Part shown: one piece after another, positions 14,519 through 19,267 of the stretch | How the letters are laid out: the number at the start of each line of letters is the position of its first letter | Numbering within the stretch: position 1 is the stretch's first letter | Origin: an uncultured Hippea sp. | GTDB lineage: Bacteria; Campylobacterota_A; Desulfurellia; JAADFJ01 | NCBI GenBank assembly: GCA_913009315.1 | Contig: CAJVZA010000031.1 | Coordinates: 1 to 20,700, forward strand | DNA length: 20,700 nucleotides | Reading direction: 5' to 3' | Position numbers and translations under genes: made by a program | The notes under the pieces: generated by a model | What the model was told of the DNA's origin: nothing | Databases searched by the model: none | The model's input: the letters and a program-made list of their open reading frames with translations, nothing else

Positions 14519-14815
14519 ATGAAACTGATAGATATTAAAAATGCAAAGCCCGATATGAGACTTGCAAGGGCAGTAGAAAATGCCTCCGGAATGATACTTT
14601 ACGGAGAAGGAATGAAACTGACGATACCTATTATTGAGAAGTTCAACTCACTTGATATCGACTCAGTTTATGTTGAGGGAAAATCAGAGCCCAGGTTGTC
14701 AAGAGAAAGGTATCTCGGCATTGCCGACATCGCTTTCTCAAAGATTTCAAATAACCCTCTGATGAATGAAATAAAAAAGGATTTTACGGAATATATAAAT
14801 TCGCTTTATGAATAA
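14519..14815 (+). CDS. 98-aa protein resembling the N-terminal region of HD-GYP proteins
   Basis: This cytoplasmic protein has GGAGGT 9 nt before its ATG. Residues 1-55 follow the pattern often seen ahead of HD-GYP domains (DUF3391-like): 'lkpgM.La..v....G.iLy..G..Lt..ii.kf..l.i..VyV', here NAKPDMRLARAVENASGMIL and LTIPIIEKFNSLDIDSVYVE. The remainder is helical (IADIAFSKI, MNEIKKDFTEYINSL). No catalytic domain is present. It is the first gene of an operon and overlaps the HDOD gene by 8 bp. It probably works with that protein as a separated regulatory domain; this is an inference. Confidence 0.8.
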   Translation: MKLIDIKNAKPDMRLARAVENASGMILYGEGMKLTIPIIEKFNSLDIDSVYVEGKSEPRLSRERYLGIADIAFSKISNNPLMNEIKKDFTEYINSLYE

Positions 14816-15641
14816 ACCGTCATACGCAGATATCAAAAAGAAAGTAGAAAGACTAAGTTCGCTGCCCACAATTCCACCGGTTGTAACCAAGATACTAAAA
14901 GTAATCGGTTCTGAGGATATCTCGTTAAAGAAGATTGCAGAATTTATAAGCCGTGATCAGGCTCTTTCGGCAAGGGTACTTAAGATAATAAATTCGCCGA
15001 TATACGGTTTTCCCGGAAGAATTTCATCAATCAGTCAGGCTGTAATGCTTATAGGACTCGGTGCTTTAAAAGGTATGCTTCTTGGAATATCCATGTTTGA
15101 CATGATGCAGAAGACTATGATCGGACTTTGGGAACATTCAATAGGCACTGCTGTGGCGGCAAAGGTCATTGCAGCAAAGGTCGGAATAAAAGAGATCGAG
15201 GATGCGTCGGTTGCAGGTCTAATCCATGACATAGGAAAAGTTGCCCTTGGCATATGTTATCCTGAGCTTTATAAGAATGTTATAGCTGTTGCCAAAGAGA
15301 GGGATATCTATATTGTAGAAGCCGAGGAGGATATTATTGGTGTAAATCATGCAGAAGCGGGAAGCTGGCTTGCGAGAAAGTGGCGTTTTCCTCTTAGCCT
15401 TGTTAACTCGATTGAGTATCATCACAATCCCTCGGCAAAGCGCCCATCTATGACAATTGCGATCGTGCACCTTTCAGATACAATAATAAAAATGATGGGG
15501 TTTGGTTTCAGCGGTGATCCGTTTGCCCATCGGATTGAGCAGACCGCATGGGATACTTTAGCTCTTACAGGAGAAGATTTGAAGGGAATATTTATGGAAA
15601 TCGAAGAAGCAATATTGAGTCAAGAGACTTCTATATTCTGA
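14808..15641 (+). CDS. HDOD-domain signalling protein
   Basis: The protein has 277 residues. The HDOD domain starts at about residue 16 with the signature LSSLPTIPPVVTKIL, followed by RDQALSARVLKIINSPIYGF and ISSISQAVMLIGL. The central HD pair survives as GLIHDIGK (H140, D141), and further histidines follow in NHAEAGSWLARKW and SIEYHHNP. The protein therefore keeps more HD-type metal ligands than many HDOD proteins, and weak phosphohydrolase activity cannot be excluded. HDOD proteins usually act as scaffolds in c-di-GMP, chemotaxis or motility signalling. It overlaps its neighbours by 8 bp (upstream) and 1 bp (downstream). It has only a weak ribosome binding site, so translational coupling is likely. 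Confidence 0.9.
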   Translation: MNKPSYADIKKKVERLSSLPTIPPVVTKILKVIGSEDISLKKIAEFISRDQALSARVLKIINSPIYGFPGRISSISQAVMLIGLGALKGMLLGISMFDMMQKTMIGLWEHSIGTAVAAKVIAAKVGIKEIEDASVAGLIHDIGKVALGICYPELYKNVIAVAKERDIYIVEAEEDIIGVNHAEAGSWLARKWRFPLSLVNSIEYHHNPSAKRPSMTIAIVHLSDTIIKMMGFGFSGDPFAHRIEQTAWDTLALTGEDLKGIFMEIEEAILSQETSIF

Positions 15642-16564
15642 TGGAATCTATAGTTGTTATATCGGACAATGAACTGACCGGCAGCAGCATTCTTAAATAT
15701 CTCAAAGATTTAGGCAAGTTTGATGTGACTATACTGACATCCACCGAAGGACTTATAGGCAGAATTTATAATGCTCCTCCATCGCTGCTTATAATGGATA
15801 ACGGCATAAGTCTCAAAAACTATGTTAAGATAATTAGGGACGATCCTATCTTCAGTCATCTTCCGATTATTATACTTCTTGAAAAAGAAGAATTTATAGA
15901 CAGGTGGGATGACTATCCTGTAGATGATTTCATATTCAAACCGATTGACAGGAATAATTTTCTTATGAGAGTTGCATTATCTATCCGGCGCGCTTGCAGG
16001 ATTGTCGAAATAAACCCTTTGACTATGCTTCCCGGAAATACACCCATTATAAAAGAGGTTCAGAACAGGCTGGATAATTCTATACAGTTTGCCCTTGCTT
16101 ATGCAGATCTTGATAATTTTAAACCATATAATGACAGATACGGTTTTACAAGAGGCGATGAAATCATCCGTATGACAGGTCGTCTGATAACCAATATAGT
16201 AAAGTCCTATGATCCTAAACACGGTTTTGTGGGACATATCGGAGGCGATGATTTTGTATTTATGGTTGCATCGGAAAAGGTAGGGATAATATCGGATGAA
16301 ATTGTGAGAAATTTCGATAAGATTATTCCATCTTTTTATGATGCCGAGGATACAGAAAGGGGACATATAATTTCTCATACGAGAGGCGGGAAAGAAAAAA
16401 GATTTTCTCTCCTTACAATATCCATAGGTATTACAATAAATCGGAAATGGTTTCATCATTATGGAGAGATAAGTTCAGCTGTAACCAAAATTAAGGCGCA
16501 TGCAAAAGACTATAAAGGAAGCGTATACCGTATTGACAGAAGAAATTACCACAAGAAAGATTAG
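15641..16564 (+). CDS. receiver-GGDEF protein, probable c-di-GMP synthase
   Basis: Translation starts at the ATG at 15641, which overlaps the HDOD stop (TGATG), giving 307 residues. Residues 1-115 are a receiver domain with D9, phospho-acceptor D53 (SLLIMDN) and K100 (FKP). Residues about 125-300 are a GGDEF domain of the 'LPGN' type: LTMLPGN (127-133), ADLDNFKPYNDRYGF (155-169), RGDE (171-174) and the active site GGDDF (201-205, a permitted form of GGDEF). The aspartate of RGDE is the guanine-reading position, which is serine in Hypr cGAMP synthases. Its presence favours c-di-GMP. No RxxD inhibitory site precedes GGDDF. No cognate kinase is next door. Confidence 0.9.
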   Translation: MESIVVISDNELTGSSILKYLKDLGKFDVTILTSTEGLIGRIYNAPPSLLIMDNGISLKNYVKIIRDDPIFSHLPIIILLEKEEFIDRWDDYPVDDFIFKPIDRNNFLMRVALSIRRACRIVEINPLTMLPGNTPIIKEVQNRLDNSIQFALAYADLDNFKPYNDRYGFTRGDEIIRMTGRLITNIVKSYDPKHGFVGHIGGDDFVFMVASEKVGIISDEIVRNFDKIIPSFYDAEDTERGHIISHTRGGKEKRFSLLTISIGITINRKWFHHYGEISSAVTKIKAHAKDYKGSVYRIDRRNYHKKD

Positions 16565-16688: not shown

Positions 16689-16709
16689 CTAAAGATGTCT
16701 CATCTTTAG
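16689..16709. terminator. hairpin over the stop codon of cheW-CZB, possible bidirectional terminator
   Basis: CTAAAGATG (16689-16697) and CATCTTTAG (16701-16709) form a perfect 9-bp stem with a 3-nt loop. It includes the final codons and stop of the minus-strand gene and lies between convergent operons. No U-run is evident on either side, so the terminator role is uncertain. Confidence 0.35.
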
Positions 16710-17480
16710 ATCTTCCGCAATCCTTCCCGGATCAACAAGCATGATGAGATCATCACCAAGCTCTGCAATCTTGTCGGTAAGCTCGGATGCCTTGCCGAGA
16801 CTGAGTCCTTCGGTGGATTTTATATTCTTGCTGTCTATGTTCTGAATGGAGACAATCTTATCTACGATGATTCCCTGCAGTCCGCTCTCCAGCTCAATGA
16901 CAATTGCAAGCTCTTTGAACTCTTTCTCAAGGAGATCATAAGTCTTTCTGAACAGTTCGATCATCAGATTCAGAACTCCCGATTTAGCGTCGACTATTAT
17001 ATCCAATGCTTCGTCGGTTTTCCCCTCGCTTCTTTTGAGGATGACTTCTGCTGCAAGACTATGGATTGTCTCATGAGGAGATTTGAACTGATTGAGCAGT
17101 CCTCTCAGGTTAAGATCATCGGTATGAAAGCCGTCAAACCACCTTCCGAATCTGCATCTGTGAGGGTCTTTTTCCAGTTTAAACTCTCTGTCTTCTCTTA
17201 CGCTTGCCTCAAGTTCGTCTATCCATTCACGATGCTCCGCCTCCCGCTGCCTGAGTCGGTCGACAAGCTCTATATTCTCATCATACAGGCTCTTTATTCC
17301 AAGCCGTTTTCTGAAATCTATTACGGGAATTACCTTCCCTCTGAGATTGATTATACCCCTTATGAAATAGTCTGCCTGCGGAACAGGAGTAACATGGGGC
17401 AGTACAACCATATCCCGTATTATACCTACGGGCATACCATAGAGATTATCCGATACCTTATATATTACATACTTTTTCAT
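16689..17480 (-). CDS. CheW-like coupling protein with an inserted CZB zinc-binding domain
   Basis: The protein has 263 residues, about 100 more than a plain CheW. The CheW fold is split. Residues 1-62 give the first strands (KYVIYKVSDNLYGMPVGIIRDMV, YFIRGIINLRGKVIPVIDFRKRLGI), and residues about 190-258 the rest (LAIVIELESGLQGIIVDKIVSI, DDLIMLVDPGRI). Between them lies a helical chemoreceptor zinc-binding (CZB) domain with the expected ligands: H83 (HREW), C109 in PHRCRFGRW, and H136/H140 in SPHETIH. CZB domains bind zinc through three histidines and one cysteine and can sense oxidants or metal. The ATG follows AAGGAGG. The gene lies downstream of a chemoreceptor gene, so the two probably form one array unit. 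Confidence 0.9.
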   Translation of the reverse strand: MKKYVIYKVSDNLYGMPVGIIRDMVVLPHVTPVPQADYFIRGIINLRGKVIPVIDFRKRLGIKSLYDENIELVDRLRQREAEHREWIDELEASVREDREFKLEKDPHRCRFGRWFDGFHTDDLNLRGLLNQFKSPHETIHSLAAEVILKRSEGKTDEALDIIVDAKSGVLNLMIELFRKTYDLLEKEFKELAIVIELESGLQGIIVDKIVSIQNIDSKNIKSTEGLSLGKASELTDKIAELGDDLIMLVDPGRIAEDLKMRHL

Positions 17481-17617
17481 CTGATCCTCCTTATCTTCAA
17501 GAGCTTAAAGTTCTTTCCTGTCCTCAGCTTCGGATTCTTCAGTGCAAGTCCTTTTCTGCCTTGTCCGGCCTGCTGAAACCATTCGGCTGCTTTGTATCGC
17601 TGCAGAAGCAATAGCAT
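17477..17617 (-). CDS. possible 46-aa small ORF between the chemoreceptor and cheW-CZB
   Basis: The ATG at 17617 opens 24 bp past the chemoreceptor stop, and the TGA overlaps the cheW-CZB ATG (ATGA). The peptide is basic (starts MLLLLQRYKAAEW, ends LLKIRRIR). It has no good ribosome binding site, and its last codons double as the cheW ribosome binding site. It may simply be an open spacer; support comes only from the overlap. Confidence 0.25.
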   Translation of the reverse strand: MLLLLQRYKAAEWFQQAGQGRKGLALKNPKLRTGKNFKLLKIRRIR

Positions 17618-17640: not shown

Positions 17641-19164
17641 TTAGAAGTTCTTCAGCTCGGTTTCTGTCAGCGGAATGACATCTGATGGCCGCTTGAGAAT
17701 GGCTTTGGGTGCCGAGGGCGGTCTCATAAGTCTGTTGTTTCGGTTATCTCCGTTTCCGTGTGAGGCCGAAGCAGTTATATTCAGTTTAACACCCAAGAGC
17801 TCTGCAAGCCTTCCTGCAACCGTTGTAAGATTGTCAGCCTGAGATGTCATCTCTTTTGCCGATGCGGCAATCTCTTCGGATGCCGCAGAGTTCTGCTGAG
17901 TCACGGTATTGAGCTGAGTTATTCCCTGATTGATCTGACCTATCCCTTTTGTCTGCTCGGCTGCGGCTTCGGCTATCTCATTTGTCAGGGTCTTTGCCTT
18001 CTCGGATCTGCTTACCACCTTCTCTATTGCTTTTGCCACCGTACCTGATGCCTGAACACCTCTTGCTCCCTGATCTATCGATTCCTGTATCAGTTCTGCG
18101 GTATTCTTTGCCGCCTCAGCTGATTTGGCTGCAAGGTTTCTTACCTCCTCAGCCACCACTGCAAAGCCTGCTCCTGCTTCTCCGGCTCTTGCTGCTTCCA
18201 CTGCAGCATTCAGAGCAAGCAGGTTTGTCTGGAATGCTATCTCATCAATTGTCTTGATTATCTTTGCAGTCTTATTGGATGTCTCTTTTATGCTGTTTGC
18301 AGAGTCCATAAGATTCGAGACCAGTTTCCTTCCTTCTTCTGCAGCACCTGCTGTCTCCTCTGCCGTGATATTTGCCTGATTGGCATTATCGGCAGTCTGC
18401 TTAACCATCGAGTCAACCTCCTCCATAGATGAGGCAATCTCCTCAAGAGAGGCAGCCTGCTCGGCCGCTCCCTGAGCCAGAGCATCCGAGGCGGAGGAAA
18501 GCTGGACGGAGGATTGGTTGATGTCTGACGAACTTGATGCTATCTTGTTGGTTTCCTTATCCATAAATCTTATCGCTTTTCTGGTACCTTTAATATAGTA
18601 CATGATAACTGTTACTATTAAAACAAAAATAAGCAATATTATGATAAGCATATTGATTGTTTTCGATCTGATGGACTTAGCAGACATATTAATCGATAAA
18701 ACTCCCAGCATATCCCCTTTTGAAGCCTCAGTATGACATTGAAGGCACCATTTTCCTGCAACATACGGAATACTTACGCTGATAATCGGGTTGCCTCCAA
18801 ACAAGTTGCGTGAACTGACCTGCACTTTTCCCGATTTAAACGTTGCCTTCTCCTGTTCTGTTGTTTCACCTTTAAGATTAAAAGCCTTCTTTACCGCATC
18901 CGATTTTGCGAGATGCGCCGAATTCACATCTTTAATCCTTTTGGGAACATCTTTTACAGATTTTCCGATTCCAACTATGTTGCCTGCTTTCATCTGAAGC
19001 GTCATGCTTCGCTCTATCATTTTAGCAATAGTTTTTGCGCGGCTTTTTTCCATTGAAATTGAGTAATTCCAGTCAAGGACCGAAAATGCGATAAAGATTA
19101 CAATTACACCTAAGATACCCGCTAAAGCCAAACCGGTAATCATCTTTTTGACATTCTTTTTCAT
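17641..19164 (-). CDS. methyl-accepting chemotaxis protein with a haem-c (CxxCH) periplasmic sensor domain
   Basis: I choose the ATG at 19164, 5 nt after GGGAGG; the TTG just before it is too close to the ribosome binding site. The protein has 507 residues. TM1 spans about 8-30. A periplasmic domain (about 31-168) of the DUF3365/Tll0287-like type contains [20 protein letters not shown] with a haem-c motif C140-x-x-C143-H144. TM2 spans about 170-191. Then, with little or no room for a HAMP domain, comes the signalling hairpin with the hallmark tip [20 protein letters not shown]...[10 protein letters not shown]. The C-terminus has no clear CheR-tethering pentapeptide. Relatives with periplasmic c-type haem are thought to sense redox state or gases such as O2 or NO. 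It is probably co-transcribed with cheW-CZB. Confidence 0.92.
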
Positions 19165-19267
19165 CAAAACCTCCCATTTCTTAGATGATATCTCAATTTT
19201 TCTATGTCATAAAAATTATCAAAATAGTGAACCTTGCGCAAGTCAATCCTGTCCTTAAGCAGTTCAT

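Follow-up and report, generated by a model that had tools for sequence, protein, structure and literature searches.

A CheW protein of an uncultured Hippea sp. is confirmed as one CheW fold broken by a complete CZB domain, and this nested CheW-CZB arrangement is a conserved clade that reaches beyond the Hippea genome and takes in at least five named phyla. The window, by which we mean the whole stretch of DNA analyzed (20,700 nucleotides), is an entire contig of an assembly (G000) that measures 1.74 Mb and is 87.6% complete.

Domain Order and Predicted Structure

The CheW-CZB frame at 16689–17480 on the minus strand opens with an ATG and has a ribosome-binding site, AAGGAGG, immediately 5′ of it. 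The features of the gene are as follows.

16689..17480, minus strand: CheW-CZB gene, CZB nested inside one CheW domain, 263 aa (Pfam, six-frame search, model)
17487..17492, minus strand: ribosome-binding site (AAGGAG) of the CheW-CZB gene (sequence)
17283..17471, minus strand: CheW N-terminal half, profile positions 2–64 (six-frame genome search, model)
16917..17288, minus strand: inserted helical domain, residues ~65–188 (AlphaFold2 model, structure alignment)
17040..17234, minus strand: CZB by Pfam PF13682, residues 83–147, whole profile (Pfam)
16710..16913, minus strand: CheW C-terminal half, profile positions 69–136 (six-frame genome search, model)

A first-pass annotation of the window had proposed a CheW protein split by an inserted CZB domain, and Pfam bears this out, with the two CheW halves flanking the CZB in one frame. 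CheW (PF01584) scored 79.6 bits in two stretches against a curated cut-off of 23.5 (E 2.2e-22), and CZB (PF13682) scored 45.9 bits against a cut-off of 29.4 (E 7.6e-12), covering profile positions 1–64 of 64. The six-frame genome search read a single open frame of CheW 2–64, CZB 1–64 and CheW 69–136, so that the CheW profile is interrupted after position 64 and restarts at 69 with about 125 residues in between. The profile scored residues 83–147 as CZB. The annotation had put the insert at residues 75–165; a helical insert is indeed present, but its extent had to be revised to about 65–188.

The window protein was modelled with AlphaFold2 from an alignment of ten nested proteins, giving a mean pLDDT of 92.9 and a pTM of 0.81. 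The model, which agrees with the domain order above, consists of five strands between residues 2 and 55 (2–9, 12–17, 21–26, 40–46 and 49–55), a helical domain at 65–185 (helices 65–95, 110–117, 123–130, 133–151 and 155–185), and the remaining strands plus a helix at 191–259. Both CheW halves form a single fold, as the split-domain proposal had required, and the alignment to TtCheW (2qdl_B; Z 19.5, 142 residues, rmsd 2.3) spans residues 1–263 across the insert, as do those to the CheW structures 2ch4_Y (Z 19.3) and 8c5v_E (Z 18.9). Retention of the two-subdomain CheW fold around the insert is fully supported by the model. Residues 68–186 aligned to the DgcZ CZB (3t9o_B) with a Z of 13.0, a level that is within reach of unrelated helical bundles, and the identity of the CZB is therefore carried by the Pfam score and the ligands. 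A relative from the Acidobacteria, modelled from the same sequence set, gave a pLDDT of 88.6, a CheW Z of 19.5 and a CZB Z of 13.2.

Nested Relatives and Origin

Our CZB survey of 386 diverse genomes found matches in 51, and all four CheW-CZB proteins among the CZB frames read were nested (the window, G254, G217 and G199), a count that describes this sample, outside which the Clostridia lie. CheW was not found in the remaining CZB-bearing frames examined, and there was no tandem CheW-then-CZB protein among them. Scanning a species-genome collection with the window protein alone gave no match; the alignment of the four proteins was required, and it recovered nine colinear proteins, two of them identical to those of G254 and G217. 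With a second copy from a Verrucomicrobium-labelled genome, the homologue survey that the first-pass annotation had suggested turned up 11 other distinct proteins with the same insertion point, twelve including the window's, each with the CheW N part before the CZB and the C part after it.

Chance does not account for the nested order, which these 11 other proteins repeat. An assembly or gene-prediction error that fused adjacent cheW and CZB genes is scarcely credible: the frame is single and uninterrupted, the CheW halves and the CZB are co-folded, and the arrangement is repeated in those 11 proteins from unrelated assemblies. We rejected an artefactual fusion on the strength of these independent nested relatives.

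By the labels in their record titles, the holders of nested proteins belong to the Acidobacteria, Planctomycetes, Gemmatimonadota, Verrucomicrobia, Eisenbacteria and other lineages, most of them environmental and uncultured. Two different nested genes (L096 and L078) occur in a single Verrucomicrobium-labelled genome (G392). Plasmids searched by tblastn gave CheW N-half or CZB matches only, with no nested protein, and viral contigs held no nested CheW-CZB protein. Two candidates (L080 and L081) were set aside as plain CheWs in which only the CheW N-half matches, and a match on an Acetoanaerobium plasmid was a plain CheW downstream of CheA. The relative set includes only two Spo0A-bearing genomes, which are from one family and measure 6.8 and 7.3 Mb.

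A tree was built from 49 CZB domains, for which domain boundaries came from a profile of the nested members and some outgroup rows are long-branched. The twelve nested domains form one clade in it with support of 100/99, and this clade adjoins CZBs located near the MCP N-terminus. The simplest reading is a single insertion event and then spread across phyla. Three MCP-length frames (L054, L048 and L051) carry two consecutive CZB domains in their N-terminal part.

Zinc Site and Conservation

The predicted zinc ligands of the window protein are as follows.

17232..17234, minus strand: His83, predicted zinc ligand (sequence, alignment)
17154..17156, minus strand: Cys109 (CRFGRW), predicted zinc ligand and presumed redox cysteine (sequence, alignment)
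17073..17075, minus strand: His136, predicted zinc ligand (sequence, alignment)
17061..17063, minus strand: His140, predicted zinc ligand (sequence, alignment)

The insert had been credited with a complete CZB motif set, and H83, C109, H136 and H140 were all found at the positions given for them; this 3His/1Cys set is complete and is invariant in 10/10 aligned homologues. CZB helix 1 (residues 72–100) is the most conserved part of the nested proteins, with a mean pairwise identity of 57%. The cysteine loop stands at 50%, and the two CheW halves fall below the CZB core at 36% and 24%. The preservation of the zinc ligands in all ten homologues, together with helix 1 being the most conserved part, indicates that the sensor is under selection.

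Two further residues are invariant in the nested set: W86, three residues past the first zinc His, and Arg47 of the CheW NLRG motif. The residue after the zinc Cys varies in the family alignment (Ala in four, Lys in five, Arg in one) and is Arg in the window protein. In two planctomycete members (L074 and L075) the NLRGxxxP motif is mostly lost, and coupling may therefore differ between members.

The conservation of helix 1 can also be read as that of a zinc-dependent structural or dimerizing module with no switch, in which pairs of CZBs would bridge two CheWs and set the geometry of the array with zinc permanently bound. The 2021 survey (PMC8262984) describes the DgcZ CZB as a homodimer held mostly via helix 1 with sub-femtomolar zinc affinity, and helix 1 is what the nested proteins keep best. 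However, the zinc Cys, which published work ties to switching, does not vary among the aligned homologues, and the CZBs studied to date behave as switches. We regard a purely structural module as quite unlikely, and prefer a CZB that senses.

Gene Neighbourhood and Chemotaxis Genes of the Host

Upstream of the CheW-CZB gene lies a chemoreceptor gene.

17641..19167, minus strand: MCP, probable operon partner, 160 bp upstream of the CheW-CZB gene (MCPsignal E 1.1e-38)
18733..18747, minus strand: CxxCH (CLQCH, residues 141–145) of the window MCP, likely c-type haem site (sequence)

The gap separating this gene from the CheW-CZB gene holds no terminator-like site that a scan of the coding strand could find. 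This MCP is the only one found in the assembly, and it has two hydrophobic stretches, near residues 8–30 and 168–195, between which the CxxCH falls, in the predicted periplasmic part. Judged from its sequence, it is likely a c-type haem redox receptor. The Geobacter MCP sensors GSU0582 and GSU0935 hold one c-type haem (PMC3460858), and the window MCP resembles this sensor family: it has one CxxCH, and its part between the hydrophobic stretches gives a match to Mcp40H-20_sensor that lies under the Pfam cut-off (E 0.0013, 19.4 of 27 bits). A phmmer search of the sensor part against PDB sequences gave no match. Convergent with the CheW-CZB gene, at 14808–16561 on the plus strand, are an HDOD protein and then a receiver-like/GGDEF protein whose motif reads GGDDF where GGDEF would be expected.

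At one other locus (L071) the nested gene is the last recognized gene of an MCP-cheR-cheD-HDOD-response regulator-(gap)-cheB-cheW(CZB) cluster, which resembles the cheA-cheR-cheD-HDOD-cheB-MCP cluster of a second genome of the window's genus (G002). The latter occupies 591–7659 of L033 (G002:C55), and its MCP signalling match contains one in-frame stop. On the stretches around the nested gene at seven other loci (L072–L075 and L077–L079), no che gene was recognized with the small reference set used.

The chemotaxis set of G000 consists of one MCP, one CheW (the CheW-CZB), CheD, CheX and a CheY-like protein; CheA, CheR, CheB, flagellin and FlhA were not found in this 87.6% complete assembly. 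A CheD-HDOD pair (L092, 9697–11018, C1) and a CheX-CheY pair (L093, 5055–5982, C20) lie outside any che cluster. Among assemblies of the same genus, G001 (88% complete) yielded no MCP, CheW, CheA, flagellin or FlhA, and G002 (94% complete) has CheA, CheR, CheB, flagellin and FlhA, with no free CheW found. Flagellin, FlhA and CheA are thus missing from 2/3 genus assemblies, which could reflect motility loss within the genus or assembly gaps. In each of the ten other holder genomes examined, CheA-sized frames with full CheW domains are present, from which it follows that the family works in cells having an ordinary array. Most of these ten also have short canonical CheWs, and in most other holders the nested protein is an accessory CheW alongside canonical ones.

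These gene sets allow the MCP and CheW-CZB of the window organism to be seen as a remnant of a flagellar chemotaxis system since lost, or as working independently of it, with CheA absent and the pair either decaying or signalling otherwise. The missing CheA, CheR, CheB, flagellin and FlhA of G000, despite its MCP, CheW, CheD, CheX and CheY-like protein, and the similar gaps in G001 speak for such a loss. Set against this, clustered che and flagellar genes could go missing together from a genome at 87.6% completeness, the reading frames of CheW-CZB and of the MCP are unbroken, retain every key residue and show no decay, and CheA-sized CheW-domain proteins occur in every one of the ten other holder genomes. 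We consider a lost system doubtful, though a real possibility for this organism.

Proposed Function

CheW binds MCP tips and CheA P5, and is commonly regarded as a passive linker. Our preferred reading is that CheW-CZB is probably both a coupling protein and a sensor, through which zinc/redox conditions in the cytosol adjust the receptor-kinase array; the main doubt comes from the CheA missing from the G000 assembly. The CheW part would dock on MCP tips and CheA and so place the CZB at the array. Zinc loss or oxidation of Cys109 would then change the shape of the CZB where its two chain ends meet the CheW fold, and this change would shift receptor-kinase coupling, with the result that the array would read the cytosolic zinc/redox state in addition to the receptor's ligand. 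We infer the ligand of CheW-CZB and the direction of its signal; sensing that would act directly on coupling, as the first-pass annotation had suggested, is in keeping with how the protein is built. The pairing with the haem MCP suggests that redox outside (MCP) and redox inside (CZB) could be combined as one input pair.

By analogy, the cue may be zinc availability or redox generally and not hypochlorite, a preference that follows the argument made for Salmonella McpA (PMC13370339). Since the holders are mostly uncultured environmental lineages, zinc/redox would also be a likelier cue than neutrophil bleach for the nested CZB branch. A broader proposal would make the adaptor ring a sensor family-wide: zinc-gated CZBs in CheW, possibly dimerizing across CheW/CheA rings, would gate the whole array independently of receptor ligand, and the window organism may represent a case with a single haem MCP and possibly a non-CheA output. 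We think this unlikely as a whole. With a metal/redox sensor lodged inside the CheW fold and better kept than the CheW, the conserved nested clade offers a direct test of adaptor-level array input.

Comparison with Known Systems

That CheW occurs with CZB was already known from family surveys, as the first-pass annotation had noted: a 2021 survey (PMC8262984, mBio) contains a CheW-CZB subgroup, which makes up 1.4% of 10,140 CZB proteins and is commonest in Clostridia. This subgroup has the same two domains as the window protein, both in one protein, and the residue after its zinc Cys is given there as Ala or poorly conserved. The nested set is likewise poorly conserved at this position (A/K/R, with Arg in the window protein), and on this agreement the window protein is best placed in the known CheW-CZB class. 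The survey's tree groups CheW-CZB with cyclase and periplasmic CZBs, and our tree puts the nested CZBs beside N-terminal MCP CZBs. We found no description of the nesting of CZB in CheW in the searchable text of the literature, figures and supplements aside, and the survey's searchable text does not use the word "insert"; going by the four of four in our 386-genome sample, nesting is probably usual, not exceptional, in the CheW-CZB class. No experiment on any CheW-CZB protein was found in the literature: the 2021 survey gives their number and a 2023 publication mentions them, and neither studies an individual one.

Zinc or oxidant signalling by CZBs has been reported for TlpD (PMC6715182), DgcZ (PMC8262984) and McpA (PMC13370339, a preprint). 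Zinc binding by CZB is very tight, and the domain reacts to cysteine oxidation in TlpD and DgcZ; for the CZB of Salmonella McpA, the preprint argues for a response to shifts in zinc availability that track redox potential (PMC13370339, 2026). H. pylori TlpD and McpA share the zinc site and presumed chemistry with the window CZB, but theirs sits at the C-terminus of a soluble MCP and the window's on an adaptor. E. coli DgcZ (CZB-GGDEF; 3t9o, 4h54) holds the closest solved CZB to that of the window (Z 13.0), and its output, unlike that of CheW-CZB, is c-di-GMP synthesis. A Trp three residues past the first zinc His, like W86 in the window protein, is a feature that the survey gives for the cyclase subgroup (PMC8262984).

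A likeness at the level of the array is CheWS of Treponema denticola, in which a sensor fused to CheW is reported to act at the array and which its authors term the first characterized protein of this kind (PMC10653840). Like the window protein, CheWS has a CheW domain that bears a sensor, with input at the adaptor level. In CheWS, however, a CheR-like SAM-binding domain at the C-terminus does the sensing, neither nested nor a CZB, whereas the window protein carries its CZB within the CheW fold itself.
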